From positions 2,104,501-2,168,500 of the forward strand of contig NZ_KE148312.1 of the NCBI RefSeq assembly GCF_000238055.2: a stretch of DNA of 64,000 nucleotides, given 5' to 3'. The position numbers and the translations under genes were made by a program. The notes beneath the pieces are model-generated. The model saw nothing but the letters and a program-made list of their open reading frames with translations. It was not told the DNA's origin and ran no database searches. The stretch comes from Oribacterium parvum ACB1. GTDB taxonomy: Bacteria > Bacillota > Clostridia > Lachnospirales > Lachnospiraceae. Positions 18,470 through 47,218 of the stretch are shown in pieces. Position 1 is the stretch's first letter, and each line of letters starts with the position of its first letter.

Positions 18470-21400
18470 CCCCCTTTCTCGTCGCTTTCTTTTTCGCTTC
18501 TGTTTCTTGTTTTGCTTCCGAATCTTGTTCCGCTTTAGCTCCTGTTTTCCCTTCCTCTTTCATTTTCACTTCTGCATCTTTTAGAATTTCCGTCCAAAAT
18601 TCTTCTTCCGTCTTATCTTCCAATCGACGATAGCGGAAGTTCGGGATATTTTCATCAAAGCCGCAGATGCTGTGATAGGGACAGTAGGAGCAAGCTGTCT
18701 GCTCATTTCCCTCTTCCATGGGAAAAATGTCTTTTTCACCCGCCTTAATTCTTCTATGTTCTTCCCGCATTTTCTTCTTTGCATAGGAAAGAAGGGCGTC
18801 AAACTTTTCCTTGGAAACCGCAGCGCCCTTTTCTTCTACCGCTCCATTTTTCACCTGAACAGGAAGACATAGACTTTCTCCGGCATCCAGCTTTTCCAAA
18901 TGGGACAAGCTTTCCTCGGAAATATTGACAAGTCCCTTCGGCTTTAAGGCCTTTAGGCGTTCCTTTTCTGCATCCTTCTCCGGATCGTAAGGAAGGGCAG
19001 GATTATCCATCGTAAAATAAAACATGGCAGAAGGAAGAATCTCCATATCTTTATGTTTTTTTCCTTCTTCTCTCAGTACATAGTCCATATATAAAGGAAG
19101 CTGTAAATCAAGACCTGCAAACAGGCGCTTTAAGGAAAAGTCCTTTTTTCCACTCTTGTAGTCAAGAACCTTTAAGAAAAGAGTCTTTTGATCCTCCGTA
19201 AGAAAGCTGTCCACTCTGTCGATTCTTCCCCTGAGACTTAATCCGTCTTCTTCAAAATAAAAGTCCTGCTCTATTGCTTTAGGTCGTAAATCCCCTGCAA
19301 GAAGTTGTTTTCCCAAAGCCCAAAGAATCCTTTTTCCATTTTGTGAAAGCTTTCGAAGCAGATACTGATTCCGTCCCCCTTCCTGAAAAACGGCAAATTG
19401 AGGGTCCAGCATACTCTCTTCAATCACCTCTTTCAGAATCTTCTCCATCTTTTCTCCAAAGAATTCCGCATCATTTCCGCTTTTTAGCATTCGTTTAAAG
19501 AAAAGCTCTACCATCTTGTGGTAAAGGTTTCCAATGTCAAAGGCCTGTACTTCCTTTGTTTTTCTTTCTTTCAGTTTTAATCCGTATTGCAAGAAATGGG
19601 CAAAAGGACAGGCAGTGAAAAGCTCCATTCTGGTTACGGAGCCTTTTATGGTTTCTCCATACAAAGCTTTACTGAGTTCTGTCGAAAGAGCTTCTTTTCT
19701 ATTTTCAAAGAATAAGGCATCCAGCAGCTTCTCTACCTTCTCACGGTATTCTTCCTTATTCCAAAGGTAATGCAATAAACTGAAGGCTTCCGTCTTAAAA
19801 CGGTGTTCCAGTTCAAGCTTTTCTTGGAAAATTCTCTTCTTACACATTGCAGGAAGTTCTCTCGCCAGTTCCTCCCTTGCTTTCTTTTCATTGTAAATCT
19901 CTCTTTTTTCCTTAAGGGAATAGGAAGCTTTCAGCCACGGAAACAGCTCTTTTAATTCTAAAATATAGGAACTTGGCTTACCGCTTTTTCCGTCTCGTAA
20001 CGCGCGGGGATAGGACAAGTAAAGCTCCTGACTCGGCGTTAGAAAGGCCTTATATACATAGTATTTCTCAATATAACCTTCTTCCCACGCTAAAGGAGAT
20101 AGACGATAGCCTTTATCTCTTAGGAACTCTCTTTCCTTTTCACTGAGAATATTCTTGCTTCCGGGGGGGGCCGGAAGAAACTCGGAGTTTAGACCGAGAA
20201 ATAAAAAGGCTTTCGGATTGTGAAAGCGAGACCGTCTTAAATCTCCTACAACCAGCTGATCAAGAGTTGCGGGAATCTGTCTTAACTTTTCTACAGAGAA
20301 AGCAAGGTCAAAAAGCAGGGCAAAGGATTTTTTAGAAACGGGAATCTCCCCCAGGCTTTCTCTCATTCTATCCATGATTTCATGGATTTCTTCTATGCTT
20401 CTGTGATAGCTTTCCCGTCTGTTTTCCATGCCTTCCGCATCTAAGAAAGAAAGGGATTCTTCCACTCTTTCCGCCAAATCTGTATTTTGCAAAAGACGAA
20501 AAAGACAGTCCATTCGTTCCTTTAAGAGAGAGGCATCGGCATTTTCCTCATAAAAATGAAAGAGAAATTCCAAGTCCTGACACAATACTTTTATCTCTAC
20601 GCTATACTGCTCTTTAAGCACGTTCATCTCTTTTACGGAAGTCAAGTCTTTGTCATCAGTCTGCTCTTTGTCTTCAGTCTGCTCTTTGTCATCAGTCGAA
20701 TCTTTATCATCAGTCGAATCTTCACCGACAGTTGATTTCTTCTCACGGACACTTTCTCCGCCTGCAGTTCCATCCTTTACAACTGCAGGAATATCCAGTA
20801 AGGACTGAAAGGCTTTTTTCCCTTTTAGTCCTCTTGCTCTGGCAATGTTCTCCCACTCATCAAGTAAACTTTCAGCCTCTTTTCCCCTATAGGGAAAGGA
20901 GCGAAGATAACGGAAAACGCTATCGAAAAGAAAATCCTTTTCCGTAAGCAAAAGTGCAGAACGAATCACTTTTCCATAGGGAGAGTCAAAAAGCTGTATA
21001 TCTTCTTCCAAAAAAAATGGAATCTGTAAATCCTTCCATCTGCTAAAAAGAATATCTCTATAGCTTTCTATATCCGGAATAATAACGGAGATATCCCTAT
21101 AACGATAGCCCTTGTCCTTTACCAAATGATGAATGTAGGCTCCTGCATCCTCGACCTCTCTTTGAATATCCGGAGCCTCTCGAAGGAGAATTCCCTGCTC
21201 TACAGAGGAAAAGCTCTTTCCCGTAGCAAAATCATCACAAATCTTCTGCAATACGGGAATGTCTCTAAAGCGGGGATAGGGAACTCCCGCCTCTCTCTTT
21301 TCTCCGCTGATACTGTCAAAGAGATTTAGGTTCACTGCGGGAAGAAGCTTCACATTCAGCTGATGTGCTAAACCTTCAACAGACTCCACAGCATCCTTGG

Positions 21401-22261: not shown

Positions 22262-23314
22262 CTAGGCAAAGGCCTCCAGCATCTTCCTCTTTACCTCCTC
22301 TTTTTCCTTAATTTCTCCGAAGTAAAGTTCCCTTCCTAAAACTTTTTCTTCCGGATAGCCCGCTTTCAGATTTTCTTCCGGATAGCCTATTTCCAGATAC
22401 TCTTCTATAAAGCCTGTTTTCAGATACTCTTCCAGAAAGCCTGTTTTCAGATTCTCTTCCGTAATAAGAATTTTTTTCTTTTTTCTAAAAAAAAGCTCCG
22501 GATAAAAATAATAGAGGACGGTCGTCATATCCCAGTTGTAAAAGCCTTTTATGCCGTACTCCCTGTCGTTATAGGCAAACCAATCACTCTCTTTCTTTAA
22601 AATATATTGGCCGATGCTTGAATTTTCAAGTCTCTCTTTGAAATCGGAATAAGAGGTCATAACCGCGAGGCAGGCATTTCCCGTAATGATATGAAGATTC
22701 TCTCCATTTTGGAGAACGAGAGTAGATGCCTTATAGTCTACAGAGAAATTGAGCTCCTTCATTTCCTTTTTTTCGAAAATGAGCGGTGCGGTAATTCCTC
22801 CCATAAAGTAGATTCCCTTAATCAGACAAAAGAATTCCGGATCCAAAACAAAAGCTCCCGCAATATTCGTTAGAGAGCCGGTCACAATCAAATCAATTTC
22901 ATGCGGATAGGCTCTGGCAAGCTTTACAAGATTTCGGGAGCTTTCCGAGTCCCAGTCTTCCGGTTTTAATCCTCCAAGCCATAAGGGAATATCCTCTCTA
23001 TTCCTTTCCCTAAGCATAGTCCTTGTATTTTCATAAACGACCTTGGTTCGGTTGTTTCCAAAGCTTGCACTGACGGCCAGAAGCTCGATGTCCTCTCTTC
23101 CGAGAAGATAGAGGAGGCACAGCCCGTCATCCATATCACAGCCCGGGATTCCCATGGTATTGTCACAGTCAAAAATGATTTTTCGCTTATTTTCGTTTTG
23201 CCTTGCTCTATTTTGCATTTCCATTTTTTCTGTTTCTATATTTTGCGTTTCTATTTTTTCTATTTCCGTTTTTTCTGTTTCTATCTTTTCTATTTCTATC
23301 TTTTCTGTTTCCAC
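22262..23314 (-). CDS. Inosine/uridine-preferring nucleoside hydrolase family protein
   Basis: The core fits the IUNH family, which cleaves ribonucleosides to base and ribose. The metal-binding aspartates appear in IIFDCDNTMG and CDMDDGLCLLYLLG, LLAVSASFGNN follows, then VTGSLTNIA, the ELNFSVDYKAS substrate loop and a C-terminal YNWDMTTV. The usual contiguous DTDPGxDDA is spread out, so substrate preference is unclear. The GTG start at 23314 follows GGAGG by seven bases and lies 2 bases after the ABC ATPase stop. Both ends carry low-complexity repeats: Glu/Ile/Lys/Thr units over about the first 35 residues and four copies of a ten-residue Glu/Tyr/Gly unit near residue 300. Confidence 0.82.
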   Translation of the reverse strand: METEKIEIEKIETEKTEIEKIETQNIETEKMEMQNRARQNENKRKIIFDCDNTMGIPGCDMDDGLCLLYLLGREDIELLAVSASFGNNRTKVVYENTRTMLRERNREDIPLWLGGLKPEDWDSESSRNLVKLARAYPHEIDLIVTGSLTNIAGAFVLDPEFFCLIKGIYFMGGITAPLIFEKKEMKELNFSVDYKASTLVLQNGENLHIITGNACLAVMTSYSDFKERLENSSIGQYILKKESDWFAYNDREYGIKGFYNWDMTTVLYYFYPELFFRKKKKILITEENLKTGFLEEYLKTGFIEEYLEIGYPEENLKAGYPEEKVLGRELYFGEIKEKEEVKRKMLEAFA

Positions 23315-23316
23315 CT

Positions 23317-24489
23317 TTAGTCCTCCAAAACCTCTTCTTTAGAAAATAGAATAACTCCCTTTTCCGCTTGCAGTACCATCCTATACGGAACTTGCTCTAA
23401 ATCCTCAGGTCTGTCTGATAAATTGTGAAGAACAAGACCGTTTTCATTTTCCCAAAAAACTCTCCAGCTGTCTCCAATACACTGGGAGCTTATCGGATAA
23501 AAAAGAGAGGCGCTGCTATAAGCTTGCACTTTTTCCCTTGAATCGATTGCTTCTTCCGGAAAATGCATCTCTTCCGCATCTGATTTTTGCAGAGCATCTG
23601 ATTTTTGCAGAGCTCCCGACGCTTTCTGAAACTTGAGTTGTCTCTCCCTTAGGAAAAGATAGTACTCCCCGTCCGGCTTGTCCGCTACAACAAGAGACTG
23701 CGCTGTGCACGAGTGATCGTCGTTAGGAATAGGAAAAAAAGGCATCTTAAATTCTCCCCTTTCCACCCTTCCTAAAATAAAGTTGGCTTCCCCCATAAAT
23801 TTTGCCGCATAGACGGTTTTCGGGGCATAGAAAAGCTCTTCTCCTCTTCCGCATTGCAGAACTTCTCCCTCTTTCATTAAAGCAATTCGGTCGGAAAGGC
23901 GCAGGGCTTCCTCATGGTCATGTGTGACAAGCAAAACGGAAAGACCTCTCTTCTCCCGCAAATGAAGGAGAAGCTCTCCCATTTCCTTTCGAAGATTCGG
24001 GTCCAAAGACGAAAACGGCTCGTCCAGAAGGAGCAGTTCCGCATTCTGGGCAAGTGCTCTCGCAATGGCCACCCTCTGCTTCTGTCCTCCGGAAAGACTT
24101 TCTATCGTCCTCCTCGAAAAACCCTCGAGGCTTACAAGAGATAGAAGCTCTTCCACTATTTTCCGTTCTTCCGTCTTGTTCTTTTTTTGAAAATGCAGAG
24201 GAAAGGCAATGTTTTCTCCAACCGTAAGGTGCGGAAATAAACGAAGGTCCTGGAAAACCACCGTACAATCTCTTTTTTCGGGAGGAAGCTCAGTCAGATC
24301 TCTTCCGTTCAGAAAAACTCTCCCCGAAGAACTCGGAATGAGCCCCAGTACAGCTTTAATCAAGGTACTCTTCCCACAACCGCTGACACCGAGAAGACTG
24401 AAAATTTCGCCTTTTTGTATTTCTAAGGAACAGTTCTTTACAATAGAACTCCCTTCCAAATATACATTCAGATTTTCTATTTTCAACAT
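23317..24489 (-). CDS. ABC transporter ATP-binding protein (YnjD-like)
   Basis: The first 240 residues are a standard importer ATPase: Walker A LLGVSGCGKST, Q-loop VVFQDLRLFPHL, signature LSGGQKQRVAIARAL, Walker B LLLLDEPFSSLD and switch histidine in LLVTHDHEEAL. A C-terminal extension of about 150 residues looks like the TOBE-type regulatory region of the MalK/PotA group, with a small duplicated unit (ALQKSD twice). It overlaps the upstream permease gene by 7 bases. With the two permeases and the YnjB-like binding protein it forms one importer. The solute cannot be told from sequence. Confidence 0.93.
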   Translation of the reverse strand: MLKIENLNVYLEGSSIVKNCSLEIQKGEIFSLLGVSGCGKSTLIKAVLGLIPSSSGRVFLNGRDLTELPPEKRDCTVVFQDLRLFPHLTVGENIAFPLHFQKKNKTEERKIVEELLSLVSLEGFSRRTIESLSGGQKQRVAIARALAQNAELLLLDEPFSSLDPNLRKEMGELLLHLREKRGLSVLLVTHDHEEALRLSDRIALMKEGEVLQCGRGEELFYAPKTVYAAKFMGEANFILGRVERGEFKMPFFPIPNDDHSCTAQSLVVADKPDGEYYLFLRERQLKFQKASGALQKSDALQKSDAEEMHFPEEAIDSREKVQAYSSASLFYPISSQCIGDSWRVFWENENGLVLHNLSDRPEDLEQVPYRMVLQAEKGVILFSKEEVLED

Positions 24490-25280
24490 ACTTTTTCCCT
24501 CCTTTTTAAGCCCCGTATCAGCATTTCCATAAGAAGAAAGAGTAGGAAGCTGCTCAGTAAAAAGAGCAGTCCGTAAACGCTCGCGAGATTCCTTTCTCCA
24601 CTTTGGATAAAGGGCACCATAATAAGACTTAAAGTCTTCAGCTTCCCTCCGCCAAGAAGCACCGTTAAGATGTACTGGCTCATGGAAAGAATAAAGGACA
24701 TCATAAATGCAGGAATAAGGTAGGGGAAAAGCAAGGGAATTGTCACCTTAAACAGCAAATAGAAGCCGCTCGCCCCGAATACTCTTCCCTGCTCCTCCAA
24801 GCGTTTGATGTTATTTCGCATTCCCTCCGTAAGATAACTTGTTGCATACGGCAGGCTGTACAGCACGTGCGATAGAAAGACCGAAAGGTAGGCATTTTTA
24901 AAGGGAAGGCGTAGAAAAAGAATCTGTGCTCCCATGGCAAAAACCGAAGACGGAATCATAAAAGGAAGGAATATACAAAAAGAAAGCAAGCTACTCTCTT
25001 TGTGTTCACTTTGCCATTTTGCGGTGCAATAGGCAGCCATTATAGTGCATAAAGACACCATGACGGAAAAAAAGATACTGAATAGGCAATTTAAAAAAAG
25101 AGCCTTTCTTTGAAAGAGAATACTTCGAATCGCTCTCAAAGAGTAGTTTCCGGGGAGTATCCCCGGCCATGTGTAGCGCTCGGAAAAGCTCAGTAAAATA
25201 AGGACTAAAAAAGGAAAAACAATCGAAAACAGAAACAATATGCGTATCAGCTGATACGCCAGATTTTTCTTTACAAGCAT
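24483..25280 (-). CDS. ABC transporter permease, second subunit
   Basis: The 265-residue membrane protein has about six hydrophobic segments and the cytoplasmic EAA-type loop in RVFGASGFYLLFKVTIPLL (about residues 163-181), which contacts the ATPase. It follows the other permease gene by 2 bases and overlaps the ATPase gene by 7, so translation is coupled. In E. coli YnjC the two permease halves are fused in one protein; here they are separate genes. It belongs to the type I importer group (sulfate/molybdate/iron/thiamine-like). Confidence 0.9.
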   Translation of the reverse strand: MLVKKNLAYQLIRILFLFSIVFPFLVLILLSFSERYTWPGILPGNYSLRAIRSILFQRKALFLNCLFSIFFSVMVSLCTIMAAYCTAKWQSEHKESSLLSFCIFLPFMIPSSVFAMGAQILFLRLPFKNAYLSVFLSHVLYSLPYATSYLTEGMRNNIKRLEEQGRVFGASGFYLLFKVTIPLLFPYLIPAFMMSFILSMSQYILTVLLGGGKLKTLSLIMVPFIQSGERNLASVYGLLFLLSSFLLFLLMEMLIRGLKRREKVC

Positions 25281-25282
25281 AG

Positions 25283-26113
25283 TTATCCTTTCTTCTTCGG
25301 TAAAAAGCGGAAATAAAAGAAGGAAAGCAGGAGCGAAAAAAGGAGCATGATTCCGTTATAGCTTAGTGCAGTAGGGCGATTCATAAATCCTCTTTGCAGT
25401 TCCTGATAGGCCAGGACGCTAAGGGCCCTCTCCGTTGTATTTCCAAGAAGATAGGGAAGATCAAAGCTTCCGAAGGAAAAGGAGAAAATAATAAAAAAAG
25501 CCGCAAGATATTGCCGAATCGATAAAGGCAGCGTTATAAAAAAGAAGCTGTATAAGGGACTCGCTCCCATTGTTCTCGCGGCTTCTCCCAACTTTCCGTC
25601 CACCGAATAGGCGAGCGGTAAAGCGAAAAAAAGCATAAAGGGTAATTCCTTCCAGATGTAACCAAGGATCACACCAACTCCAAAACGGTCATAGACGAAC
25701 TCCGGAAAAGCACTTTGATCGGAAATAAGTTTTAACGCATAAAAAATCCTTGCCATAAATCCGTTTTGCGAAAGGAAAAAGAGTAGAAAAAGCGCTACCA
25801 AGCTATGCGGCATAATAATTGCAAGCTGTAATATCGACTTTAACCTGTTCCAATTTTCCGAAAAATGTAAAATCAGAAAAGAACAAAGAATCGCAAGAAG
25901 GAGCGTAAAAAGGGAGGATAAAAAGGAAATCCGTAATGTATAGAAAATAGAGGGGAGCGTATCCCCTCTAGTAAAAATCTCCTTATAATGCGCAATACTC
26001 CCATGTCCCTCTACAGTAAAACTTTCCCAAAGACCCCAAAACAAAGCCAGTAGAAAAAGCAGTGTAAAGAAAATCTGAGGCAAGAGATACAGAAAGGAGA
26101 AATTCTTTTTCAT
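25283..26113 (-). CDS. ABC transporter permease, first subunit
   Basis: The 276-residue protein has about six membrane segments beginning at residue 7 and a clear EAA motif, GEAARTMGASPLYSFFFITL, around residues 177-196. It lies 1 base after the binding-protein stop codon and 2 bases before the next permease. A segment with SFSFGSFDLPYLLG is typical of permeases in this import class. It should pair with the neighbouring permease as a heterodimer. Confidence 0.9.
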   Translation of the reverse strand: MKKNFSFLYLLPQIFFTLLFLLALFWGLWESFTVEGHGSIAHYKEIFTRGDTLPSIFYTLRISFLSSLFTLLLAILCSFLILHFSENWNRLKSILQLAIIMPHSLVALFLLFFLSQNGFMARIFYALKLISDQSAFPEFVYDRFGVGVILGYIWKELPFMLFFALPLAYSVDGKLGEAARTMGASPLYSFFFITLPLSIRQYLAAFFIIFSFSFGSFDLPYLLGNTTERALSVLAYQELQRGFMNRPTALSYNGIMLLFSLLLSFFYFRFLPKKKG

Positions 26114-26114
26114 C

Positions 26115-27416
26115 TTACTGTCCTACTACTTCTTCCTGCCAGATTTCCTCGATAATCGGAACGAGACCTGCGGGCATTTCCGGAAGACGCTTGTTTAAAA
26201 GCTCGCTCTGCGGAAGAACACCCTCTCCGAGATCCACCTTGGAAAACTCCTCCTGCATCTCTTTCGAAAGTTTGACATTGTCGAGTACCGGAATGGTCTT
26301 TAAAGTCTCATAGCGGTTTAACTGTACTTCGGGTGCCATCATTGCATTGATTGCCACTTCAGCAGCAGCTCTGTGCTTTGCATTCTTGGAGATAGCAATG
26401 TAGTTCGTGTTTCCGATTGTTCCCTTGTCGAAAAGGAAAGTCTTCGTATCAGGGGAGAAGCTTCCGTCCTTGATGCCGTTTGCTACAATATATGCGGAAT
26501 AGCTCATACCCATAATGAGTTCTCCGTCGGAGTACATGTTCATCATCGTCGGTGCGGACTCCGGATAAGTCTTTCCTTCTTTCCAAAGATAGGGAGCAAG
26601 CTCCTTTAAGTACTCCATAGCAGGCTTAACAAGCTCTCTTACCGCTTCCTTATCTTCCTTAACGGTCTGGAACTGCTCTACTCCCACAATATCATAGATT
26701 ACATTGCGGACGAAGGCGGAACCGGTAAAGTCGGGAAGTGCCGGATACGTAATCTTTCCGGGGTTGGCCTTTGCAAACTCCAAAAGCTCTGCAGTATTCT
26801 TCGGAAACTCTCCAACCTTGCTATCACCGTATAAAACAAGTTGCGCCTTACCGTATGGCGCTTCATAGCCCTCTATCGGATAAGAGAAGTCTGCCTTGGT
26901 TTCCGGATCATCCTGATTGATATACTCCTTAAAGTTCGGCAAATCCGCTGTAAACGGACCATAGAGATAATCGTTTTCCTTAGCTGTCTTAAAGTTCTCT
27001 CCGTTAATCCAGATCATGTCAATATCGGATTCTGTACTGCCGGCCTTCTTCTCTGCGGAAAGCTGGGTCAAAATATCTTCAATCCCCATGGGAACACGAT
27101 TCAGGGTGATATCATAATTCTTCTTCAAATACTCTGCATAAAAGCCGTCCAACCACTGGTTTAAACGGTCATCTCCGCCCCATCCGTAAAAGTTTACGGT
27201 CTGTCCCTTTGCTTCCTCTACAAGCTTGTCAAAGGTTTCTGAACCGGTTTCCTCTTTTTTCTCTTCCGCCTTACTCTCTTCAACCGCCTTAGTTTCCTCT
27301 GCCTTAGCCGTAGTAGCGGAGGTTTCCGCTTTCTTTCCGCCGCAAGCGGATAAAGCGAGCACTCCTGCCATAGCCATTGCTGTAAGGCGAGAAATCATTC
27401 GTACATTCTTTTTCAT
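26115..27416 (-). CDS. ABC transporter substrate-binding lipoprotein, YnjB family
   Basis: The 433-residue precursor has a lipobox (VLALSACGG, Cys at about residue 25), an Ala/Glu/Lys linker and a periplasmic-type binding domain. The YnjB (COG4134) signs are strong: NFYGWGGDDRLNQWLDGF near residue 75, DIDMIWINGENFKTAKEN, LYGPFTADLPN, then APYGKAQLVLYGD and PGKITYPALPDFTGSAFV. The family is widespread but its ligand is not established to my knowledge. The gene starts a tightly packed series SBP-permease-permease-ATPase-nucleoside hydrolase. The TVP38 and rhodanese genes upstream match the neighbour types in E. coli ydj-ynj. Confidence 0.9.
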   Translation of the reverse strand: MKKNVRMISRLTAMAMAGVLALSACGGKKAETSATTAKAEETKAVEESKAEEKKEETGSETFDKLVEEAKGQTVNFYGWGGDDRLNQWLDGFYAEYLKKNYDITLNRVPMGIEDILTQLSAEKKAGSTESDIDMIWINGENFKTAKENDYLYGPFTADLPNFKEYINQDDPETKADFSYPIEGYEAPYGKAQLVLYGDSKVGEFPKNTAELLEFAKANPGKITYPALPDFTGSAFVRNVIYDIVGVEQFQTVKEDKEAVRELVKPAMEYLKELAPYLWKEGKTYPESAPTMMNMYSDGELIMGMSYSAYIVANGIKDGSFSPDTKTFLFDKGTIGNTNYIAISKNAKHRAAAEVAINAMMAPEVQLNRYETLKTIPVLDNVKLSKEMQEEFSKVDLGEGVLPQSELLNKRLPEMPAGLVPIIEEIWQEEVVGQ

Positions 27417-27441
27417 ACTCTTTCTACTCCTTATTTTCTAG

Positions 27442-28161
27442 TTATCCTATATTTTGATTCTGTTTTTCCTTACTCTTCTGTCTTTCCGTATAAACCTGTT
27501 TACCGAGGCCGATAAGAAATGCCAAGGCAAAGAGAATTAAAAGTCCTGTTACAAGGAGCTTTGCTCCTCCTGTCAAAAATCCTCCTACATAGGAATAAAC
27601 CAAGGTTGCCGGAAGCTGCCCAAGACCTGTTGCCACCCAGAATCCCAAGAAGGATACGGAGCTTAAACCTGCGGCATAACTTACGATATCAAAGGAAATA
27701 AATGGAAGCAATCTTGCAATTAAGATACTTTGCTTACCGTGTCTCTCGAAAAATTCATCTATGCTCTTTAAAGCACCCTTAGAGGTCAGCTTCTCTACCG
27801 GTTCTCTTCCCAAAGTTCTTGCAATAAAGAAGCATAGTGCGGCACCGGCCATAGCACTGCTCCAGGAAAGTAAAGCACCCTTCCAAAAACCGAACAGCGC
27901 AGCATTGGCAAAGGTGATCAAAAAGGCGGGAAGCGGTGCTACAACAGACTGTAAGACCATGAGTAAAAAGGAAATGGCTGCAGCATAGGGCCCGTAAGAC
28001 GCTACAAAGTCCTTAACTTTTTGAAAGTCTCCCGTGGCAAAAACACGGAAGACTTCCTTCAAGAACATTCTAAACGGTGCGTATAAAAAGTACAGAGCCA
28101 CAACTGCAATCACTCCAAGGAACAGAAAAATTCTGTCTCTTAGGAAAGATTTTTTAGTCAT
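27442..28161 (-). CDS. TVP38/TMEM64 (VTT domain) membrane protein, copy B
   Basis: The 239-residue membrane protein belongs to the DedA-related VTT family. It shows the family core from ANAALFGFWKGALLSW through FFIARTLGREPVEKL, then RLLPFISFDIVSYAAGLSSV and GQLPATLVYSYVG. Members are thought to handle lipids or small solutes; this subgroup (YdjX/YdjZ-like) has no settled role. Its ATG overlaps the stop of the rhodanese lipoprotein by one base, so the two proteins are made together. It lies 25 bases before the YnjB-like gene. A second copy is at 32981-33694. Confidence 0.92.
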   Translation of the reverse strand: MTKKSFLRDRIFLFLGVIAVVALYFLYAPFRMFLKEVFRVFATGDFQKVKDFVASYGPYAAAISFLLMVLQSVVAPLPAFLITFANAALFGFWKGALLSWSSAMAGAALCFFIARTLGREPVEKLTSKGALKSIDEFFERHGKQSILIARLLPFISFDIVSYAAGLSSVSFLGFWVATGLGQLPATLVYSYVGGFLTGGAKLLVTGLLILFALAFLIGLGKQVYTERQKSKEKQNQNIG

Positions 28162-28958
28162 TACTTATCTCCCTTGGAAAAATCATACTCCACTTCCTTG
28201 GTGCCGTCTAAGCAATTCCATACATTGGTATAGCCCTTGCTTGCAATATACTCTGCAGCTACCGCGGAACGGTTTCCGGAATAGCAATGGGTAATGATTA
28301 AGGTGTTTTTGTCATCCGGAAGAATAGCATCGATGGTTGCCGGATCCTCGGAATTGACATTGACAGCAGTAGCAAAATGTCCTGCTTCAAAGTCCTTTGC
28401 CTCTCTTGCATCCACTACAAGGGCGTCTTTCGCCTTCTCCATAAGCTCCTTTGCACGGATATTGCCGAAGGTCTTTAAATCATAGGAAAACTTCTTTACC
28501 CCTTCTCCGTTAAACACCTTGGTAAAACCGTTAGAAACCAGAATATCGGCAGCCTCTCCTGACATCTTCCCCGAATTGCAATACAGAATGACATTCTTAT
28601 CTTTCCAATCTTCAATCTCGGAAAGATGGTCTTTAATAGTATCCAGCGGCATATTAATAGCAAAATTGATATGTCCCTTAGCGTATTCCTCTGCACTACG
28701 AACATCGATAATCAGATAGTTCTCTTTTTCCTTCTTATCTTCTACGATCTTCTTAATGGCATCGCCCTTTATTTCTTTTACTTCCGCTTTGGCGCTGTCC
28801 GTTTTCTCATCCTTTTTCTCTTCCGCCTTCTCACTTCCCTCGGAAGCTGCGGAAGTCTCCTGCTTGGTCTCCGTCTTTGTGCTGCCACCGTTTCCACAGG
28901 CAGTAAGAGAAAGTCCCATAGCAAGGAATGCTGCTAATGCCAAACTTTTCTTTTTCAT
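28161..28958 (-). CDS. Exported lipoprotein with two rhodanese domains (copy B)
   Basis: The ATG at 28958 follows AAGGAGG by five bases and opens a lipoprotein signal (LSLTAC, Cys21); the longer frame to 29033 lacks a signal start. Two rhodanese domains follow: residues about 62-160 with YCNSGKMS (Cys127) and about 165-262 with HCYSGNRS (Cys225). Both active-site cysteines are present. Each has the DVR/DAR and GHI/GHF landmarks (LIIDVRSAEEYAKGHI). Rhodaneses move sulfane sulfur through a Cys persulfide. The protein should face the outside of the membrane, which is unusual for sulfur relay to cytosolic enzymes. It is coupled to the TVP38 gene. Confidence 0.93.
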   Translation of the reverse strand: MKKKSLALAAFLAMGLSLTACGNGGSTKTETKQETSAASEGSEKAEEKKDEKTDSAKAEVKEIKGDAIKKIVEDKKEKENYLIIDVRSAEEYAKGHINFAINMPLDTIKDHLSEIEDWKDKNVILYCNSGKMSGEAADILVSNGFTKVFNGEGVKKFSYDLKTFGNIRAKELMEKAKDALVVDAREAKDFEAGHFATAVNVNSEDPATIDAILPDDKNTLIITHCYSGNRSAVAAEYIASKGYTNVWNCLDGTKEVEYDFSKGDK

Positions 28959-29100
28959 ACTATCCTCCTTATTGTGTCTAAATTGCATACAACAGTTCCG
29001 TATTTTATCATACATTTTAGAAAATAAGAACAATTATTTCTTTTATTACAGATTATGATTTATAATAATTATCTTTATTTATCTATAAAACTTATAACTA

Positions 29101-30201
29101 TCAATTCCGATAACTTTTTATTTGAGACTCCCGAAACAATTCTTCCACGGAAGATAAAAACGGATCCGTGAGATAAGCCTTGATTTTCCGAAAGGTATCT
29201 TCATTTTGAATATCTCGCCCCTTTTGGTATTCGGCGTAGGCATAGGCACACCAGGAAAGGCCTCTTATACAATTAAAGAGGATAAAGAGCTCGGTCTGTT
29301 CTTCTATGCCGGAAAAGCTCCTTCTTCCTGCCAAGGCTTCCTTGTAAGCATGAAAGAACAGAGCTTTGTCCTTTTCATGGAGAATACAATCCGTCTTCCA
29401 AAAACTGGTAGTCGGTGCCAGGAAATGTCCAAGGTCCTGCGCAAAATGAGCATAGAGCGGTTTTTCCCAGTCGATAAGATAACTGCTGATAACCGCCTCA
29501 GGCTTTTCCTCTAACTTTTTTTCTTCATTCCGGATAAGAAAGTTCCCTGAGTTTAATTCGGTATTGATAATGCAAAAATCTTTGGAAAAAAGTGTTTTGG
29601 CATATTTTCGCTCAAGATCCACTCCCTTCTTCCAGAGAGTATGAGTTCGATTGTAGATTTCCTCCTCCATAAAGGGGCTTAGCTCATAGCATCTTAATAA
29701 AGAGGCGGATTCCGAGAGCATCGCATACAGAGGATTTTCAGGAGAAAGAAGTCGAAGCTCTCCCCGGTCCTTTTCCCTCGCGTACTCGGTACTATGGATA
29801 TCCGCAAGGATTTGCCCTGCAACGGAAAGATCCGTTTCATAGCGAAGCGCCCTTCCCTCCAAAAAATCCATAAGAAGAATGCCCTTATCGCCCTTTTCCT
29901 CTACATAATAGACCTTGGGAACTCTCCCGCTTTTTTCGAGAAGAGAAAGAGCATGCGCTTCATAGGAAATCTGCTTTTTGAGATGCATTTGCGAGCCGTG
30001 ATTGACTCGTAAAACATATTTTTTTCCGCTTTCCGGATGGCTAAAGACAAAGTTCTCGTTGTACTCGCCCCTTGCCAAAAACTCGTACTCCTCTATAACC
30101 TCCATAGGAAGGTGCAAAGCCTCTCTATAGGCTCTCTCCGAAATTCTCTCCAATAAGTCCGGCTCTTTAGCGAATGTCTCTATATTCTTTTGCAAGTGCA
30201 T
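29101..30201 (-). CDS. APH/choline-kinase-fold phosphotransferase
   Basis: The 366-residue protein fits the phosphotransferase (APH) superfamily: YVLRVNHGSQMHLKKQISYE gives the ATP-binding lysine region, KGILLMDFLEG the hinge, and SYLIDWEKPLYAHFAQDLGHFL the metal-binding Asp and following helix. The catalytic loop, usually HGDxxxxN, reads INTELNSGNFLI (about residue 210), so the usual His and Asp are replaced by Asn and Glu. It may be a variant kinase or a weak one. The start overlaps the end of the fused transferase gene by 35 bases, implying linked function. The substrate is probably a sugar or nucleoside product of that enzyme; this is inference. Confidence 0.8.
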   Translation of the reverse strand: MHLQKNIETFAKEPDLLERISERAYREALHLPMEVIEEYEFLARGEYNENFVFSHPESGKKYVLRVNHGSQMHLKKQISYEAHALSLLEKSGRVPKVYYVEEKGDKGILLMDFLEGRALRYETDLSVAGQILADIHSTEYAREKDRGELRLLSPENPLYAMLSESASLLRCYELSPFMEEEIYNRTHTLWKKGVDLERKYAKTLFSKDFCIINTELNSGNFLIRNEEKKLEEKPEAVISSYLIDWEKPLYAHFAQDLGHFLAPTTSFWKTDCILHEKDKALFFHAYKEALAGRRSFSGIEEQTELFILFNCIRGLSWCAYAYAEYQKGRDIQNEDTFRKIKAYLTDPFLSSVEELFRESQIKSYRN

Positions 30202-31819
30202 TGATATCCTCTCCCTTTCTGTATCTTGCCCGAAGGCGATTCATTTTCCACATAATAAGTAGCTTATGGAAAAAGCTTCCGCTAAATCGCCTTTCGCTGG
30301 TAATCAGTCTCTTCTTGCAAAGTCCCATGGGAATCCCCCGGCTTTTTAAGTTTAGTGAAAACTGATAATCCTCCATTAAGGGAATATCCGGAAAGCCGCC
30401 CATTTGAAAGAAAAGTTCTCTTCCTAGGAAAATCCCTTGGTCACCGAACATCACCTTCCTGTCATAAACTCTGTGATTACTGATAAAACTGCAAATCATC
30501 ATAAGAGGCGTAGACGGGCTGAAACGAATGCCGAAGCAGGCCACCGGTGTTTTTCGTAGAGCTTCTCGGATTTCTTCCAAAAAGCCCTTCGGTAAAATAG
30601 AGTCGCAGTGCAGGAAGAATAAAATATCCCCGCTTGCCACTTTTGCTACGGTATTCATCTGCTTGGCTCTTCCTTTCGGACAAGGCACGACCCTGTACTC
30701 TCCGGAAAAATGATTTTCCCCGCCGTCAGCAAAGAGAATCTCTGCCTGCTTCTTATATGGACGAAGTTGCTCTTCCATGTTAGAAAGCGTATCTCCCTCC
30801 TTATAGCAGGGAATGATAATGGAAATCTTCGCCTGTCTTAGAATTTCTCTCCCGATAAAGGAGTCCTGCAGAGCTTTGTTATAAGGAATGAGCTGTCTGT
30901 AGGCTGCGATGTCCTCCCTGTCATCAATGTCCCGCCTTTTCTTTAAGAGAAGAAGCGGAAAGCGGGTAGCATAGAGAGCCGTTTTCGTGTATTCGAAAAT
31001 ATCGGCTTCCTGTTCCTGCTTCTCTCTTTTCGCACATTCCGGCTTCATTAAACGATTCTGCTCCGGATTCACTTTGCAATCATCCCTTTTCTTTCCAAGT
31101 GAAAAGATCTTATCAAGCTCGGAAGATTTCACCCTGCTCTGCAAGCCGATTCCGTAATATCCTCCGTCAAGGCTCTCTCCGAGTACATTTTTCCCGGATC
31201 GCCCTGCAGAAAAGACTTTACAAAAGCTATCTTCGGAAAGAAACGGAATATCCGCTCCGACAAGATAAGAAAAGCTGTAGCCCTCTTGAAAAGTATAGAG
31301 AAAGGCATTTTTCATTTTTAGGAAAATATTTTCTCCCTCCTGTGACACAAACTCGGCATCGGGAAAGAGATTTCTAAGCATTTTCATTTCTGCAATGTCT
31401 TTTTTTATGTCTTCTTTACTTCCCTCTTTCCTTTCTTCTTTACTTTCTTCTTTTCTTCCCTCTTGTTCTTTAGTACTTTCTTTTTTCCCCGGGTCAAATG
31501 CGCCCTCTACTACTTCATTAGCAGTAGCAGAGGAAAAAAAGAGAAAGAGCTTGACCTCCTTCTCTCTTCGATGGAAGTTCCGATAGAGCTTCGCAAAATC
31601 TTGGAGCAAAGCAAGGTGTATATCCCTTGCTCCTTTCTTTCCAAGATACGGAATCAATCTGGTCTTCGTCTTCCCGGCAATCGGAAGCCTCGTAAAGAGT
31701 ATGAGAGCCTGCTTCGATGTTCGGGTCTTAGCAAAAAGCATTTTCGGAGCGTGCAATATCTTATTCTTAACAGGTGACGCAGGCAAGGCCTTAGACATCT
31801 TGTTTACTTTCGTCAGCAT
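30167..31819 (-). CDS. Fused DUF2064 nucleotidyltransferase-like and family 2 glycosyltransferase
   Basis: The ATG at 31819 is chosen because AAAGGAG precedes it by nine bases; the longer frame to 32245 only overlaps the Fe-S gene. The 550-residue protein has two domains. Residues about 36-235 are DUF2064/TIGR04282 (CofC-like): LILFTRLPIAGKTKTRL, LVGADIPFLSEDSF and LGESLDGGYYGIGL. Residues about 330-550 are TIGR04283 glycosyltransferase 2: ISIIIPCYKEGDTL, FADGGE, PKGRAKQMN, FLHCDSILPKG and DQGIFLGRELF. These families were first named rSAM/selenodomain-associated transferases 1 and 2 and are now often annotated as arsenosugar glycosyltransferases. A Lys/Glu-rich insert sits at about 109-145. 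No ArsS or ArsM gene is nearby. Confidence 0.9.
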   Translation of the reverse strand: MLTKVNKMSKALPASPVKNKILHAPKMLFAKTRTSKQALILFTRLPIAGKTKTRLIPYLGKKGARDIHLALLQDFAKLYRNFHRREKEVKLFLFFSSATANEVVEGAFDPGKKESTKEQEGRKEESKEERKEGSKEDIKKDIAEMKMLRNLFPDAEFVSQEGENIFLKMKNAFLYTFQEGYSFSYLVGADIPFLSEDSFCKVFSAGRSGKNVLGESLDGGYYGIGLQSRVKSSELDKIFSLGKKRDDCKVNPEQNRLMKPECAKREKQEQEADIFEYTKTALYATRFPLLLLKKRRDIDDREDIAAYRQLIPYNKALQDSFIGREILRQAKISIIIPCYKEGDTLSNMEEQLRPYKKQAEILFADGGENHFSGEYRVVPCPKGRAKQMNTVAKVASGDILFFLHCDSILPKGFLEEIREALRKTPVACFGIRFSPSTPLMMICSFISNHRVYDRKVMFGDQGIFLGRELFFQMGGFPDIPLMEDYQFSLNLKSRGIPMGLCKKRLITSERRFSGSFFHKLLIMWKMNRLRARYRKGEDINALAKEYRDIR

Positions 31820-31889
31820 TTTCTTTGCTCCTTTCGACTTCTCTTCTCCATCTACAGTCTCCGCTCTTTTTTCTTTTGGCTTTATTCCT

Positions 31890-32861
31890 TTAATAAAACT
31901 TGTGCTTAAGCCGATTCCAAAAGGAGTGACTGTAATCCGCTTTTTCTCCGGTTTCCAAAATGAGGGGCAGAAAATGCTCGCTCTCGCCGAATCTTGCAAA
32001 CTGCCCGATACAGGTTGCGCAGTAGCTGATGAGCTTCTTCTCCTTCGACCGACTTTCCGCCATTTCCTTGGAAAGCATAGGTTCCTGAATGAAGGCACAG
32101 CCTCCCATACCGCAGCACTGCAGATTTTTCTTTTCGGAAAGCTCTCCCGAAAGAAAGGGAGAAAGCTTCGGAAGCCAACGTTTATCCTCTCTGTCGGGAC
32201 AGGGGAAGAAGCACTCGTACTCTTCCGTAGAAAGCTTTTTTCCAATATTTAATGCAGAAAGCTTCTCATAAATGGTGGTGATTTTAACATTCAGCTTATC
32301 CCCAAAGTGATAAAAACAGTTTGGGCAAACAAGGATAATTTCTTCAATTCCGCGCCTTTTAAAATCCTGATTTAGCCGTGTGAAGATGGCTTCCGCTTCC
32401 TTCGTAAGACCCAGCTCTTCAATCGGCTTCCCGCAGCAATCGTAGTAGGGTTCAATTCCTTCCTTCTGTAGCAGTGCAACCAGCTTGTCTAAGGTTTTCG
32501 GATAATAGGCAGGAAAATTACAGCCGGGAAAAAGAACGGTCTTACAGCCCTTCGCCTTTCTGTGATTTTGAAATAGATAGTTCTTTTTTTCCAAAAGGAT
32601 ACCGCTATAGCCCCTTTTTTTTAAGCCGTACTTTCCCTCGCTCACCTCTTCCTTTCTGTAGTCGAGAATAAGGCCTCTTCCGTCAATCCCCTTCGGGCAA
32701 ACCCGGGTACATTCTCCGCAAAGATAGCAGTGATAGGCAAGTGCTTTCAGCTTCTCGCTGTCTCCTATACAAATATCGTATTTTGTTAAAAACTTGCACT
32801 TCCTCTTACAAGCGTTGCAATGGATGCATTCTTCCACCCTTTTATGAATTTCCTTCTTCAT
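31890..32861 (-). CDS. 4Fe-4S and CCG-domain oxidoreductase subunit (HdrD/GlpC-like)
   Basis: The 323-residue protein has two 4Fe-4S motifs at its N-terminus, CIHCNACKRKC (about residues 12-22) and CYLCGECTRVCP (about 45-56). Two cysteine-rich CCG-type units follow (PGCNFP with CCGKP, and PCPDRED with CCGMGG), as in HdrB/HdrD, GlpC and LutA. It probably passes electrons or carries a cluster for thiol/disulfide chemistry. No flavin partner is adjacent. It lies between a TVP38 gene and the fused transferase gene on the same strand, 70 bases before the latter. An electron donor and acceptor cannot be named. Confidence 0.85.
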   Translation of the reverse strand: MKKEIHKRVEECIHCNACKRKCKFLTKYDICIGDSEKLKALAYHCYLCGECTRVCPKGIDGRGLILDYRKEEVSEGKYGLKKRGYSGILLEKKNYLFQNHRKAKGCKTVLFPGCNFPAYYPKTLDKLVALLQKEGIEPYYDCCGKPIEELGLTKEAEAIFTRLNQDFKRRGIEEIILVCPNCFYHFGDKLNVKITTIYEKLSALNIGKKLSTEEYECFFPCPDREDKRWLPKLSPFLSGELSEKKNLQCCGMGGCAFIQEPMLSKEMAESRSKEKKLISYCATCIGQFARFGESEHFLPLILETGEKADYSHSFWNRLKHKFY

Positions 32862-32980
32862 TTTTCTCTTACCATGATCCTCATTTTTCCTCTTACCCCG
32901 TTTCTACTTTGGTAAGCGGATAGCTTATCTTTTACTTAATTTGCACTATATTTTATGATTATTACTATTTATTTTATATC

Positions 32981-33694
32981 CTATATACTATTTTCTTTTA
33001 TATCATTTACACCGCTTTCCTTTACGCTATCTTTTTCTACTGCATTTTTCTTTTTAAAGAGAAAAGACGCCAGAAGAAGCAATACTAAAATCCCAAGCGA
33101 AATTCCGAAGTAAAGTATGGGATTCTTTTTCTCCGTAAGACCGGCAAAGGCTACGGTATACATTGCCGTCCCCGGAATCATAAAAAGGAAGCTCGATAAA
33201 AAATAAAGAGAAAAGGGGATATCCGTGATACCGTAAGCATAGTTTTGCAGGTTAAAGGGAAAAACCGGTATGGTTCTCGTCAAAAAGAGGAGAAGTAAGA
33301 GATTCCGCTTCTCACCAGAAAAGAAATATTTCTTTATGTAAGGATTCTTCTCCAGTTTAGGCTTAATAGCATCATGGAGAAAGTATCTCCCCATAAGAAA
33401 AGAGATTCCTGCGGAAATGCTGGCGGAAAGAGCGCAGAGTATCGTTCCCCAAAAAGCATGAAAGACTGTCCCGGCGATAAGTGCATAAGTAATTCCGGGT
33501 AGAGCCAAAAAAGCTCCCGCAAGAGCACAAAGCACAAGATAAAGAAAAGCGGAAAAAATGAAATTTTCCTCCGCTTTGTCCTGCAAGAAACGAAGGACAT
33601 TTCCCTGAAAAATCTCTTTTACCGGAAGAAAAAATAAGGCGAGTAAAAAGAGAAGAAGGAAAAAAAGAAAAATCCAAAGCTTTTTATTTTTCAT
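32981..33694 (-). CDS. TVP38/TMEM64 (VTT domain) membrane protein, copy A
   Basis: The 237-residue protein has six or so membrane segments and the VTT core: LPGITYALIAGTVFHAFWGT, then SFLMGRYFLHDAIKP and LTRTIPVFPFNLQNYAYG, with FMIPGTAMYTV. A polar, Lys/Glu-rich C-terminus follows. The ATG overlaps the end of the preceding membrane-protein gene by 11 bases. Copy B at 27442-28161 is also beside a rhodanese lipoprotein, so the pairing is repeated in this locus, as with ydjX and ydjZ in E. coli. Confidence 0.9.
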   Translation of the reverse strand: MKNKKLWIFLFFLLLFLLALFFLPVKEIFQGNVLRFLQDKAEENFIFSAFLYLVLCALAGAFLALPGITYALIAGTVFHAFWGTILCALSASISAGISFLMGRYFLHDAIKPKLEKNPYIKKYFFSGEKRNLLLLLFLTRTIPVFPFNLQNYAYGITDIPFSLYFLSSFLFMIPGTAMYTVAFAGLTEKKNPILYFGISLGILVLLLLASFLFKKKNAVEKDSVKESGVNDIKENSI

Positions 33695-34169
33695 GCCATG
33701 TCCCCTTCCTTAAATATGTCGAGAGGAATAGCACGGAAAAGATCTGCATAAGGACGTGCACAATAAGGCTTGCCGTATATTCTCTTCCGGGAGATCCCAC
33801 AAGAGAAAAAAAGTAAAGAAAAGAATACAGGATAAGCACTGTACTGTAAGAAACGGGAAAAAGTGGAAAAGCCTCTTTTTCTCCCCTCTCTCTTAGTATC
33901 TTTCCTCCGAAACAGGTGAAAAGTCTCTTTATTATAAGAAAAAGCACTAAAGTAAGAAGCAGTAAAATCACTAAAACACCCCACTGTAAAAGGGAAAAGA
34001 ATCCCAGCTCCTTTCCGCTCCATTTCTCCCGAAAGTAGACCATATAACGCGCCATACCCATTTTTCGCATTGTAAAATAGCGAAGAATGTAAAGGGCAAG
34101 AAGCATGAGTATTGTTCCTAAAAAGAATATCTTTTGTATTATTAACAGTATTATTTTTCTCATTTTCAT
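33684..34169 (-). CDS. Small four-helix membrane protein of unknown function
   Basis: The 161-residue product is strongly hydrophobic, with membrane segments at about 5-27, 59-83, 105-125 and 132-153. No family is recognised. I prefer this frame over the overlapping one at 33691-34227 because its residues give coherent membrane helices and its end overlaps the TVP38 start by 11 bases in a coupled arrangement. The start could be ATG 34169 or two codons later, as AGGG lies just upstream. It may be an accessory to the TVP38 protein. Confidence 0.65.
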   Translation of the reverse strand: MKMRKIILLIIQKIFFLGTILMLLALYILRYFTMRKMGMARYMVYFREKWSGKELGFFSLLQWGVLVILLLLTLVLFLIIKRLFTCFGGKILRERGEKEAFPLFPVSYSTVLILYSFLYFFSLVGSPGREYTASLIVHVLMQIFSVLFLSTYLRKGTWHEK

Positions 34170-34178
34170 CCCTATAAA

Positions 34179-34220
34179 ATAGCACAGAAAGTCTAAAACC
34201 GCCTCTACTTTCTGTGCTAT
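34179..34220 (-). terminator. Hairpin after the first rhodanese gene
   Basis: Perfect 14-bp arms ATAGCACAGAAAGT (34179-34192) and ACTTTCTGTGCTAT (34207-34220) enclose a 14-base loop. On the minus strand the stem is followed by TTTATAGG, only moderately T-rich. It could end the rhodanese transcript or reduce read-through to the membrane-protein genes. Confidence 0.6.
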
Positions 34221-34335
34221 CCCGCAATACGCTTAATCTAATCTATAGTTTTATCTACTGTATTACTTTATCTAATATATTGCTTTACCCAATACATCTC
34301 TTTATGAATACTGCAGTTTATAAAGCTTCATCAAT

Positions 34336-35466
34336 TTATTTCTTTGCCGCCTTATCCGTAGGAAGATCCTTAACCTGCACTTCCTTATAATCGGAAGAGC
34401 CCGGCTCGCCAAGCTGAACCTTGTTCTCCGGATCCATCTGCCACTGGAACCAGCCGCCGTCATAGAGGTAAGCATTCTTAAAGCCATTCTCATGGGCAAT
34501 CAGGAAGGGAACGGAAGCTCTCCAACCTGTTCCACAGTAGAAAGCAATATCGTTTTTCTCAAGAGAGAGTCCGCTTTCCCCAAGATACTCTTCAAGCTTT
34601 GCAAGGTCAACTACCGTACCGTCCGCATTGTTGTAGGATCCGTCATCGGTATCATGTCCCCAAACAGCGCCTAAAGGCTCACCTGCTCTATCAATGTAGG
34701 AATAGCCGGAGGTTTTTCCTAAGAACTCATCCTTGGAACGGATGCTGACAAGTTTAAACTTTGCATCGTCCTTTATCTTCTCTTTTACTTCATCTATGCT
34801 GAGAACATACTCGGGATGAGCGGGAATCTTTACACCGAAATCTTCTTTCGTTGCTGCCGGCTCATTGACCTGTTTCTCTGTCTCAAATCCTTCCTTCACC
34901 CATGCGTCAATACCGCCGCTTAAATTCTTAACATCTTCTACACCGGCCCAGAGAAGAACGGTTGCCAGTCTGTCATCAGCCGTATTTTCCGGCGTATTTC
35001 CATAGGTCACAACAATGGTATCCTTCGTGATACCATAGTTCTTTAAGAGTTTTTCAATTTCTTCCGGACTACGGAAGTTCCATGTCTTTTCTTCCTCGAT
35101 ATCGTCCGTATTGACGTGAAAGGCTCCGGGAATATGTGCCTTATTGTAATCTTCATCCGCGTCCACAGGCCCCCATGCAGCTTCCAAGACCTTTACGTCT
35201 TTCCCGGAATCCAGTAAAGCTTTTACATAATCGGCAGAAACATAGACAGTCTCCTCCTTTACGGAAGAAAGCTCCGCAGCTTCTTTCTCTCCTGCCTTTT
35301 CCGTTTCCCCTGCCTTCTCCGTTTCCGTAGCTTTCTCACTTGCCGCTTCTGTAGACATTTCACTGCTTACAGCACTTGTCTCCGCTTTTTTTGCATTTCC
35401 ACAGGCAGAAAGGGCTGCCGTAAGAAATACTGCAGACAGAATGATTTTTCCATAGTTCTTTTTCAT
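34336..35466 (-). CDS. Exported rhodanese lipoprotein, YnjE-like (copy A)
   Basis: The 376-residue precursor has a lipobox (AALSAC, Cys22), a Thr/Glu/Lys-rich linker with a small tandem repeat (TEKAGE units), and two rhodanese domains. The first (about 72-200) keeps the HIPGAFHVN landmark but reads VTYGNT where the active Cys should be, so it is probably inactive. The second (about 218-345) has FYCGTGWRAS with Cys311. The CGTGWR loop resembles that of E. coli YnjE, a thiosulfate sulfurtransferase-type protein. A strong promoter lies upstream at 35535-35563, so this gene opens the locus. Confidence 0.92.
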   Translation of the reverse strand: MKKNYGKIILSAVFLTAALSACGNAKKAETSAVSSEMSTEAASEKATETEKAGETEKAGEKEAAELSSVKEETVYVSADYVKALLDSGKDVKVLEAAWGPVDADEDYNKAHIPGAFHVNTDDIEEEKTWNFRSPEEIEKLLKNYGITKDTIVVTYGNTPENTADDRLATVLLWAGVEDVKNLSGGIDAWVKEGFETEKQVNEPAATKEDFGVKIPAHPEYVLSIDEVKEKIKDDAKFKLVSIRSKDEFLGKTSGYSYIDRAGEPLGAVWGHDTDDGSYNNADGTVVDLAKLEEYLGESGLSLEKNDIAFYCGTGWRASVPFLIAHENGFKNAYLYDGGWFQWQMDPENKVQLGEPGSSDYKEVQVKDLPTDKAAKK

Positions 35467-47193: not shown

Positions 47194-47218
47194 AAAAAGC
47201 CCCCTCGAAAGAGGGGGC
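47194..47218 (-). terminator. Terminator of rnpB
   Basis: GCCCCCTC and GAGGGGGC form a perfect 8-bp GC-rich stem with a four-base loop. On the minus strand it is followed by TTTTTG. It directly follows the 3' end of the RNase P RNA. Confidence 0.93.

Follow-up and report, generated by a model that had tools for sequence, protein, structure and literature searches.

What common task could link exported rhodaneses, an ATP-binding cassette (ABC) importer, a nucleoside hydrolase, a kinase and a fused transferase that lie side by side on one DNA strand? This question is raised by a 64,000-nucleotide stretch of the Oribacterium parvum ACB1 genome (hereafter the window, to which all coordinates refer), in which positions 22262–35466 hold 13 minus-strand genes. 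A preceding interpretation made from the letters alone (the sequence-only reading) had proposed a single system at the same coordinates; its genes, strands and nearly all of its families stand, while its count of twelve is corrected to the 13 that it listed. Our comparison across genomes confirms that the locus is a real, recurring module, and selenium, not arsenic, is the element that module presence tracks. The 13 genes form a new, apparently unstudied variation on the ynj and ArsS-type neighbourhoods: no description of the module was found among the literature matches listed, and an earlier description in studies of selenoprotein neighbourhoods is possible. As for function, we tentatively propose one modular pathway, possible rather than probable in our judgement, in which a riboside would be imported, its base removed, and its sugar re-attached by a kinase, a nucleotidyltransferase and a glycosyltransferase. 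The genes are as follows.

34336–35466, minus strand: Rho1, exported lipoprotein with two rhodanese domains (two PF00581 stretches, lipobox LSAC)
33684–34169, minus strand: TM161, small membrane protein of 161 amino acids (aa) (own hidden Markov model (HMM) only)
32981–33694, minus strand: TVP1, VTT/TVP38 membrane protein (PF09335, 73 bits)
31890–32861, minus strand: CCG Fe-S protein (PF02754, 52 bits; gathering threshold 20.6)
30167–31819, minus strand: fused CofC-like nucleotidyltransferase and family 2 glycosyltransferase (GT2) (TIGR04282/TIGR04283)
29101–30201, minus strand: kinase of the APH/choline-kinase fold (APH, PF01636, 49 bits; gathering threshold 23.2)
28161–28958, minus strand: Rho2, exported lipoprotein with two rhodanese domains (two PF00581 stretches)
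27442–28161, minus strand: TVP2, VTT/TVP38 membrane protein (PF09335, 94 bits)
26115–27416, minus strand: YnjB substrate-binding lipoprotein (NF008633, 431 bits; cut-off 203)
25283–26113, minus strand: YnjC1 permease (PF00528, BPD_transp_1)
24483–25280, minus strand: YnjC2 permease (PF00528, BPD_transp_1)
23317–24489, minus strand: YnjD ABC ATPase (PF00005, 129 bits)
22262–23314, minus strand: nucleoside hydrolase (NH) of a distinct subfamily (PF01156, 107 bits; gathering threshold 34.2)

The evidence for a single system comes from two genome samples. Among 145 related genomes, including the host (99.86% complete), YnjB (NF008633) occurs in 11 and TIGR04283 in nine, and both are found in seven (p = 5e-8; p = 5e-7 without the host). 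The sequence-only reading had named a lack of co-occurrence among relatives as one outcome that would speak against its idea, and this outcome did not arise; in six of these seven genomes the two genes are even neighbours, while in the seventh (G073) they lie on two contigs. The overlap is modest in a phylum-wide sample of 398 genomes (YnjB in 31, TIGR04283 in 30, both in seven; p = 0.005, or 0.015 without the host), since each family also occurs in other module types; here too the genes are neighbours in six of seven, with two contigs in G230. In other genera and families the same set of genes is found again in altered order. Additionally, some of the enzymes are fused: CofC-GT2 fusions are present in the window, in an Oribacterium sinus locus (L140) and in other loci, and an NH-CofC fusion is found in one organism (L026 = L216). 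The simplest reading of both fusion types is a common route through hydrolase, nucleotidyltransferase and glycosyltransferase. Adjacency of unrelated genes by chance, which the differing gene order among loci might suggest, is contradicted by the co-occurrence and the fusions, and we consider it extremely improbable.

To describe the module, we scanned with the kinase alignment and collected loci for the best 80 of 280 relatives, giving 81 with the window; they were picked by likeness to the window kinase, so the counts below do not reflect bacteria in general. Locus genes were tagged by our own HMMs with uncalibrated thresholds, which replaced a single-linkage clustering that merged fused genes. 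GT2 is tagged in 68 of the 81 loci, CofC in 66, VTT in 64, CCG in 60, rhodanese in 54, YnjB in 39, NH in 32, TM161 in 28 (the window included, at an equivalent position in the loci) and ArsS in 15. Many loci end at contig ends; in the 49 that have at least 8 kb on both sides the counts are GT2 43, CofC 42, VTT 41, CCG 39, rhodanese 37, YnjB 24, TM161 24, NH 23 and ArsS 13. The loci thus have a common back half, comprised of the kinase, the CofC-like nucleotidyltransferase, GT2, the Fe-S CCG protein, VTT proteins and rhodaneses, while the feeder is often either YnjBCD with NH, as in the window, or the radical-SAM protein ArsS with an AhpD-like protein.

The two feeders seldom coexist. YnjB and ArsS stand together in one of the 81 loci (p = 3e-4), NH accompanies YnjB in 32 of the 39 kinase loci that carry it and occurs in 0 of the 42 that do not, and ArsS is accompanied by an AhpD-like gene in 14 of 15 loci and by C_GCAxxG in 14 of 15. 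The kinase tree, in which only 27 of 73 inner branches are starred, requires at least six changes between feeder states (YnjB or two YnjC versus ArsS) among 51 labelled rows. Compared with the ArsS clusters annotated as 'arsenosugar / rSAM-selenodomain' (TIGR04167, 04169, 04282 and 04283), the window thus has the kinase, CofC, GT2, CCG, VTT and rhodanese families in common, but carries YnjBCD and NH in place of ArsS, the AhpD-like protein and C_GCAxxG. The sole kinase locus with both feeders, L192, contains ArsS, AhpD-like and C_GCAxxG genes as well as YnjBCD and NH. In four further loci (L107, L110, L112 and L115) the TIGR04283/04282 pair lies beside a BioB-like radical SAM protein, a call resting on one member tested (L110, family F19), with no tagged ArsS; this protein is perhaps a third feeder.

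YnjB also occurs outside kinase-bearing loci. We mapped 33 further YnjB loci: 11 belong to the ten YnjB genomes that the set of relatives contains besides the host, and the rest come from 22 of the 30 other phylum-sample YnjB genomes, eight being left out. A CDP-alcohol phosphatidyltransferase is present in 18 and a kinase in 12, with both in a single locus (L102; p = 1.2e-4); NH is found in 12, GT2 in ten and ArsS in none. The YnjBCD loci with the phosphatidyltransferase instead of the kinase form a third class, which resembles the E. coli ynj operon. The one phosphatidyltransferase tested is similar to archaetidyl- and phosphatidylinositol-phosphate synthases, below their cut-offs. The kinship with E. 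coli ydjXYZ-ynjABCDE, already seen in the sequence-only reading, is borne out by the YnjBCD, VTT and rhodanese families held in common; specifically, both the window and the E. coli stretch with ynjF have a YnjBCD importer, two VTT/DedA proteins, a rhodanese and an adjoining Fe-S protein. The E. coli stretch differs in containing YdjY, one long YnjC and the CDP-alcohol phosphatidyltransferase YnjF; it also carries the AhpD-like YnjA, and no kinase, CofC, GT2 or nucleoside hydrolase is annotated or tagged within its 26 kb in K-12. Our HMMs for the YnjF-type phosphatidyltransferase and for YdjY both find the E. coli locus (L139) and have no match in window positions 12000–47000; the AhpD HMM likewise has no window match, and it also missed YnjA in L139. 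As reported in PMC3688515, ydjXYZ-ynjABCD is activated by FNR, which is in line with anaerobic use.

The association with selenium is seen at several levels, with kinship between genomes only partly controlled in these statistics. Among the 145 relatives selD (TIGR00476) occurs in 47, namely in 12 of the 13 that carry YnjB, TIGR04283 or both versus 35 of 132 others (p = 5e-6); the sole exception, G061, is 84% complete. Within the genus, selD is present in all three module genomes versus three of 14 others (p = 0.03), and in the phylum sample in 261 of 398, that is, 51 of 54 with YnjB and/or TIGR04283 versus 210 of 344 (p = 1.5e-7; exceptions G313, G405 and G411). selA (TIGR00474) is found in 22 of 145, in nine of 13 module genomes versus 13 of 132 (p = 4e-6), and in eight of nine TIGR04283 genomes versus 14 of 136 (p = 7e-7). 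General enrichment of accessory genes is not a likely cause, since the control gene moaC, as frequent as selD (47 of 145), shows no association (six of 13 versus 41 of 132, p = 0.35). The same control bears on a sulfur supply for molybdopterin, the role proposed for E. coli YnjE, which the K-12 record names a molybdopterin synthase sulfurtransferase. The rhodaneses and the ynj kinship would fit it; apart from the moaC counts above, those for TIGR04283 genomes (five of nine versus 42 of 136, p = 0.15) speak against it. Molybdopterin is made in the cytoplasm, and the window rhodaneses are exported, outside it. We regard this role as very unlikely.

The host itself carries selA as well as selD with one in-frame TGA and very likely decodes selenocysteine (Sec). 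Within the window genes no Sec codon was detected, as no HMM match spans a TGA and no gene extends meaningfully beyond a TGA stop. An HMM-guided scan of the loci gave six matches, three of which lie at the rhodanese active site and belong to two organisms (L029 = L214, and L107), where TGA replaces the cysteine codon. Rho1 has, as read from its translation, a catalytic-type cysteine in its second rhodanese domain only, and the TGA of its relatives falls at this cysteine. The other three matches, in NH (L132, at the Trp position described below), CCG (L208) and GT2 (L176), are not at cysteine positions and were dropped; a general search of Sec reading frames was discarded too, as it returned mostly wrong-frame matches and copies of one organism. 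Rhodanese and TIGR04167 selenoproteins are listed in the review PMC13188914. Our LysR HMM tags seven of the 33 YnjB loci, the two members tested passing NF040786 (selenium LysR) with 275 and 265 bits versus a cut-off of 250, and split YedE-like sulfur/selenium transporter gene pairs occur in eight, the one tested half of each kind scoring below the full-length cut-off. YedE and a LysR group have been proposed as selenium genes (PMC5322559). The YedE-like pairs (L098, L102, L108, L119–L121, L123 and L124) are adjacent genes in reversed order relative to the full-length model, as judged from one member of each half.

These data could also be explained by organoselenium acquisition, in which YnjBCD would import a selenium-bearing nucleoside or sugar, NH would free the selenium part, the rhodaneses and the CCG protein would pass selenium towards SelD, and the kinase, nucleotidyltransferase and glycosyltransferase trio would recycle the sugar. 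The selD and selA statistics with their moaC control, the LysR and YedE-like neighbours of some YnjB loci, the Sec rhodaneses and the position of E. coli selD about 6 kb from ynjF all agree with such a role. Yet 13 of the 22 selA genomes among the relatives are without the module, the 81 kinase loci have YedE-like genes in none and LysR in one, ArsS-type loci possess the trio but not the importer, and a glycosyltransferase is superfluous for selenium supply; we thus consider this explanation unlikely.

The sequence-only reading had left the element open as sulfur, selenium or arsenic. Of these, selenium use is the one that the statistics associate with the module. Its judgement that plain arsenosugar synthesis is unlikely holds for the nearly complete host genome, where the best match to ArsS (TIGR04167) reaches 28 bits versus a cut-off of 300 and no match to ArsM (NF008823) is found at E 1e-10. 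A related possibility is arsenosugar metabolism by the ArsS-cluster pathway fed with imported organoarsenic ribosides. TIGR04283, which NCBI names for arsenosugar biosynthesis, is passed by the window protein, and the exchange of feeders with ArsS would fit as well. Against it stand the host results and the distribution of ArsM. The genomes searched for it represent 14 of the 15 ArsS loci and 30 of the 39 YnjB loci; two of the 14 ArsS-type and five of the 30 YnjB-type genomes gave a clear match, several assemblies (metagenome assemblies among the ArsS type) being incomplete and the absences therefore soft. Both ArsS-type matches, L199 and the below-cut-off L203, which is split into two pieces, come from one species, Clostridioides/Metaclostridioides mangenotii. 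Taken together, arsenosugar metabolism appears quite improbable, and there is little to justify the family name 'arsenosugar' in these bacteria, barring an external supply of methylated arsenic. With no clear ArsM found in 12 of the 14 ArsS-type genomes searched, this label needs testing here. Six ArsM matches over the cut-off, five of them with loci (L220–L224), each contain one internal TGA; those of L220–L224 are possibly ArsM selenoproteins.

The import of a nucleoside- or sugar-linked compound, as suggested in the sequence-only reading, is the best reading of the predicted YnjBCD importer, in which YnjB passes its family cut-off and is flanked by two permeases and an ATPase. The model of YnjB (predicted local distance difference test (pLDDT) 86.3) is nearest to sugar/glycoside-binding proteins (Z 26–28), and iron, polyamine and sugar-phosphate binders are among the first Foldseek rows. 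The fold comparisons of the kinase and YnjB models single out no one substrate. The NH-YnjB co-occurrence also points to such import; one locus outside the 81-locus set, L103, has NH, kinase, CofC and GT2 but no YnjB within 18 kb, and the phylum-sample search did not identify its genome (G277) as a YnjB carrier. In alignments NH retains the Asp cluster and the GN and ELN positions of PF01156 enzymes, as in the inosine-uridine nucleoside hydrolases (RihA and relatives), but differs from them in two respects: its first Asp loop (DxDxxxDD) is enlarged by an insert, and a Trp stands in place of the leaving-group His; this Trp-Asp is invariant in 20 aligned rows. We take the roles of these residues, and His241 as the number of the leaving-group His, from general knowledge of the family. 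The retained ELN argues against specificity for 5'-modified ribosides.

The kinase shares its fold with choline kinase, N-acetylhexosamine 1-kinase and methylthioribose kinase. Its model (pLDDT 91.9) is nearest to choline kinases (Z 22–23), followed by N-acetylhexosamine 1-kinase (Z 20.7), while methylthioribose kinase is at Foldseek rank 29 and not among the best 50 structural matches listed; a sequence search of the PDB gave no match up to E 0.1. The loop that corresponds to the HxDxxxxN motif of these kinases reads NTExNSxN in a 15-row alignment, and N213, T214, E215, N217 and N220 are invariant in 59 rows. In the fused transferase, the GT2 part scores 187 bits with TIGR04283 (cut-off 182) and the CofC part 94 bits with TIGR04282 (below the cut-off of 134), its motifs being kept and a long charged insert being present. 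The motifs FTRxPxxGxTKTR, GxDxP and DGGY are kept in at least 90% of 67 CofC domains, and HxDS, GDQG and EDY in at least 90% of 68 GT2 domains.

Rho2 matches rhoda_near_glyco (NF045521) with 88 bits, below the cut-off of 145, and the CCG protein resembles the C-terminal part of the 'near Sec' dicluster protein NF045663 (103 bits over model positions 304–638 of 759; cut-off 530). Both window proteins are thus similar to these 'near glyco' and 'near Sec' families but below their cut-offs, the CCG protein spanning only the C-terminal part. TM161 has no match among Pfam or NCBIfam families. Among the DedA-family proteins are flippases of undecaprenyl phosphate and putative flippases of phospholipids (PMC10127716), which is compatible with a lipid-bound product of the locus.

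A kinase, a nucleotidyltransferase and a glycosyltransferase make up the textbook series for sugar salvage and transfer, and the pathway that we propose follows it. Drawing on the observed gene content, families, co-occurrence, feeder exchange, fusions and selenium association, we infer the substrates, the product and the order of steps. YnjBCD would bring in a riboside or nucleoside-like compound, from which the dedicated nucleoside hydrolase would cut the base; the APH-fold kinase would phosphorylate the freed sugar, the CofC-like half would convert it to a nucleoside diphosphate sugar, and the GT2 half would pass that sugar on to an acceptor, which may be a lipid. The two VTT proteins may carry this lipid, or sulfur/selenium species, across the membrane, and the exported rhodaneses, together with the CCG Fe-S protein, may serve the same product by handling sulfane sulfur or selenium. 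In the sister loci ArsS would replace the first two steps and feed the series from an adenosylated product. ArsS adenosylates arsenic according to the review PMC12159101; a ribose-type sugar could therefore reach this trio through either feeder.

Several observations weigh against this proposal. L103 carries NH and the trio without YnjB, and 17 of the 18 phosphatidyltransferase-bearing YnjB loci are without the kinase, so YnjB need not import a nucleoside there. Among the 12 kinase-bearing loci of the 33, NH is missing from L098, L102 and L104, and GT2 from L118 and L120. The kinase model is closest to choline kinases, not to sugar-1-kinases. In 13 of the 49 well-flanked kinase loci our HMMs tag no YnjB and no ArsS; one of the 13, L186, does carry two YnjC genes. 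The independent-pairs test on the kinase tree rests on four pairs only and cannot decide. The tie to selenium is statistical, no Sec codon having been found in the window genes, and the rarity of YedE-like and LysR genes in the kinase loci counts here as well.

Even so read, the module unites orphans, namely the E. coli ynj-type operons, the TIGR04282/04283 transferases and the variant nucleoside hydrolase with its kinase, into one selenium-linked modular pathway, so that several families whose functions are unknown can be tested together; the E. coli variant opens part of the question to work in a laboratory strain. A more far-reaching version, in which we place little confidence, would be a selenium-dependent pathway of anaerobic gut and mouth bacteria that makes a new ribose-glycosylated, probably membrane-bound metabolite from two interchangeable feeders, one working by import and removal of a base, the other by radical-SAM adenosylation; many 'arsenosugar' annotations in Clostridia would then be wrong, and the E. 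coli ynj operon would be a third variant with a phosphatidyl-linked product.

The spacing of the window genes is operon-like (−35 to +166 nt), except for one overlap of −356 nt that arises because the mechanical open reading frame (ORF) of the fused gene starts at a remote first TTG. This ORF reaches 32245; an ATG near 31819 is the probable start, giving about 550 aa. Similarly, we read the Rho2 start at 28958, with its ORF reaching a TTG at 29033. A promoter and terminator scan gave 18 promoter-like sites versus 20.7 in shuffles (standard deviation 5.0), no excess; two such sites lie upstream of Rho1 but carry no weight, and no operon boundary is drawn. From the translations we read infC, rplT and SUF genes upstream and addB/addA downstream. 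In O. sinus (L140 = L027), as in the window, the locus lies between the genes read as rplT and addB, while in the oral taxon 078 stretches (L024, L166) neither adjoins it; in other members of the genus no rplT is found in the stretch around addB, where flanks of about 1.5 kb or less are silent on insertion or loss. In the kinase tree the window kinase groups with those of Oribacterium sinus DSM 17245 and Oribacterium oral taxon 078 (99*). Rfam at its gathering threshold gives no RNA within the locus, and an RNase P class A RNA lies elsewhere in the window (47216–47548, minus strand). Short tandem repeats of 12–54 bp occur at 20628–20732, 22347–22461, 23196–23313, 23576–23613, 31410–31487 and 51176–51322; those compared with the translations correspond to charged low-complexity inserts in the AddB-like protein, at both ends of NH, in YnjD and in the CofC part, and the NH stretches are absent from its aligned relatives.

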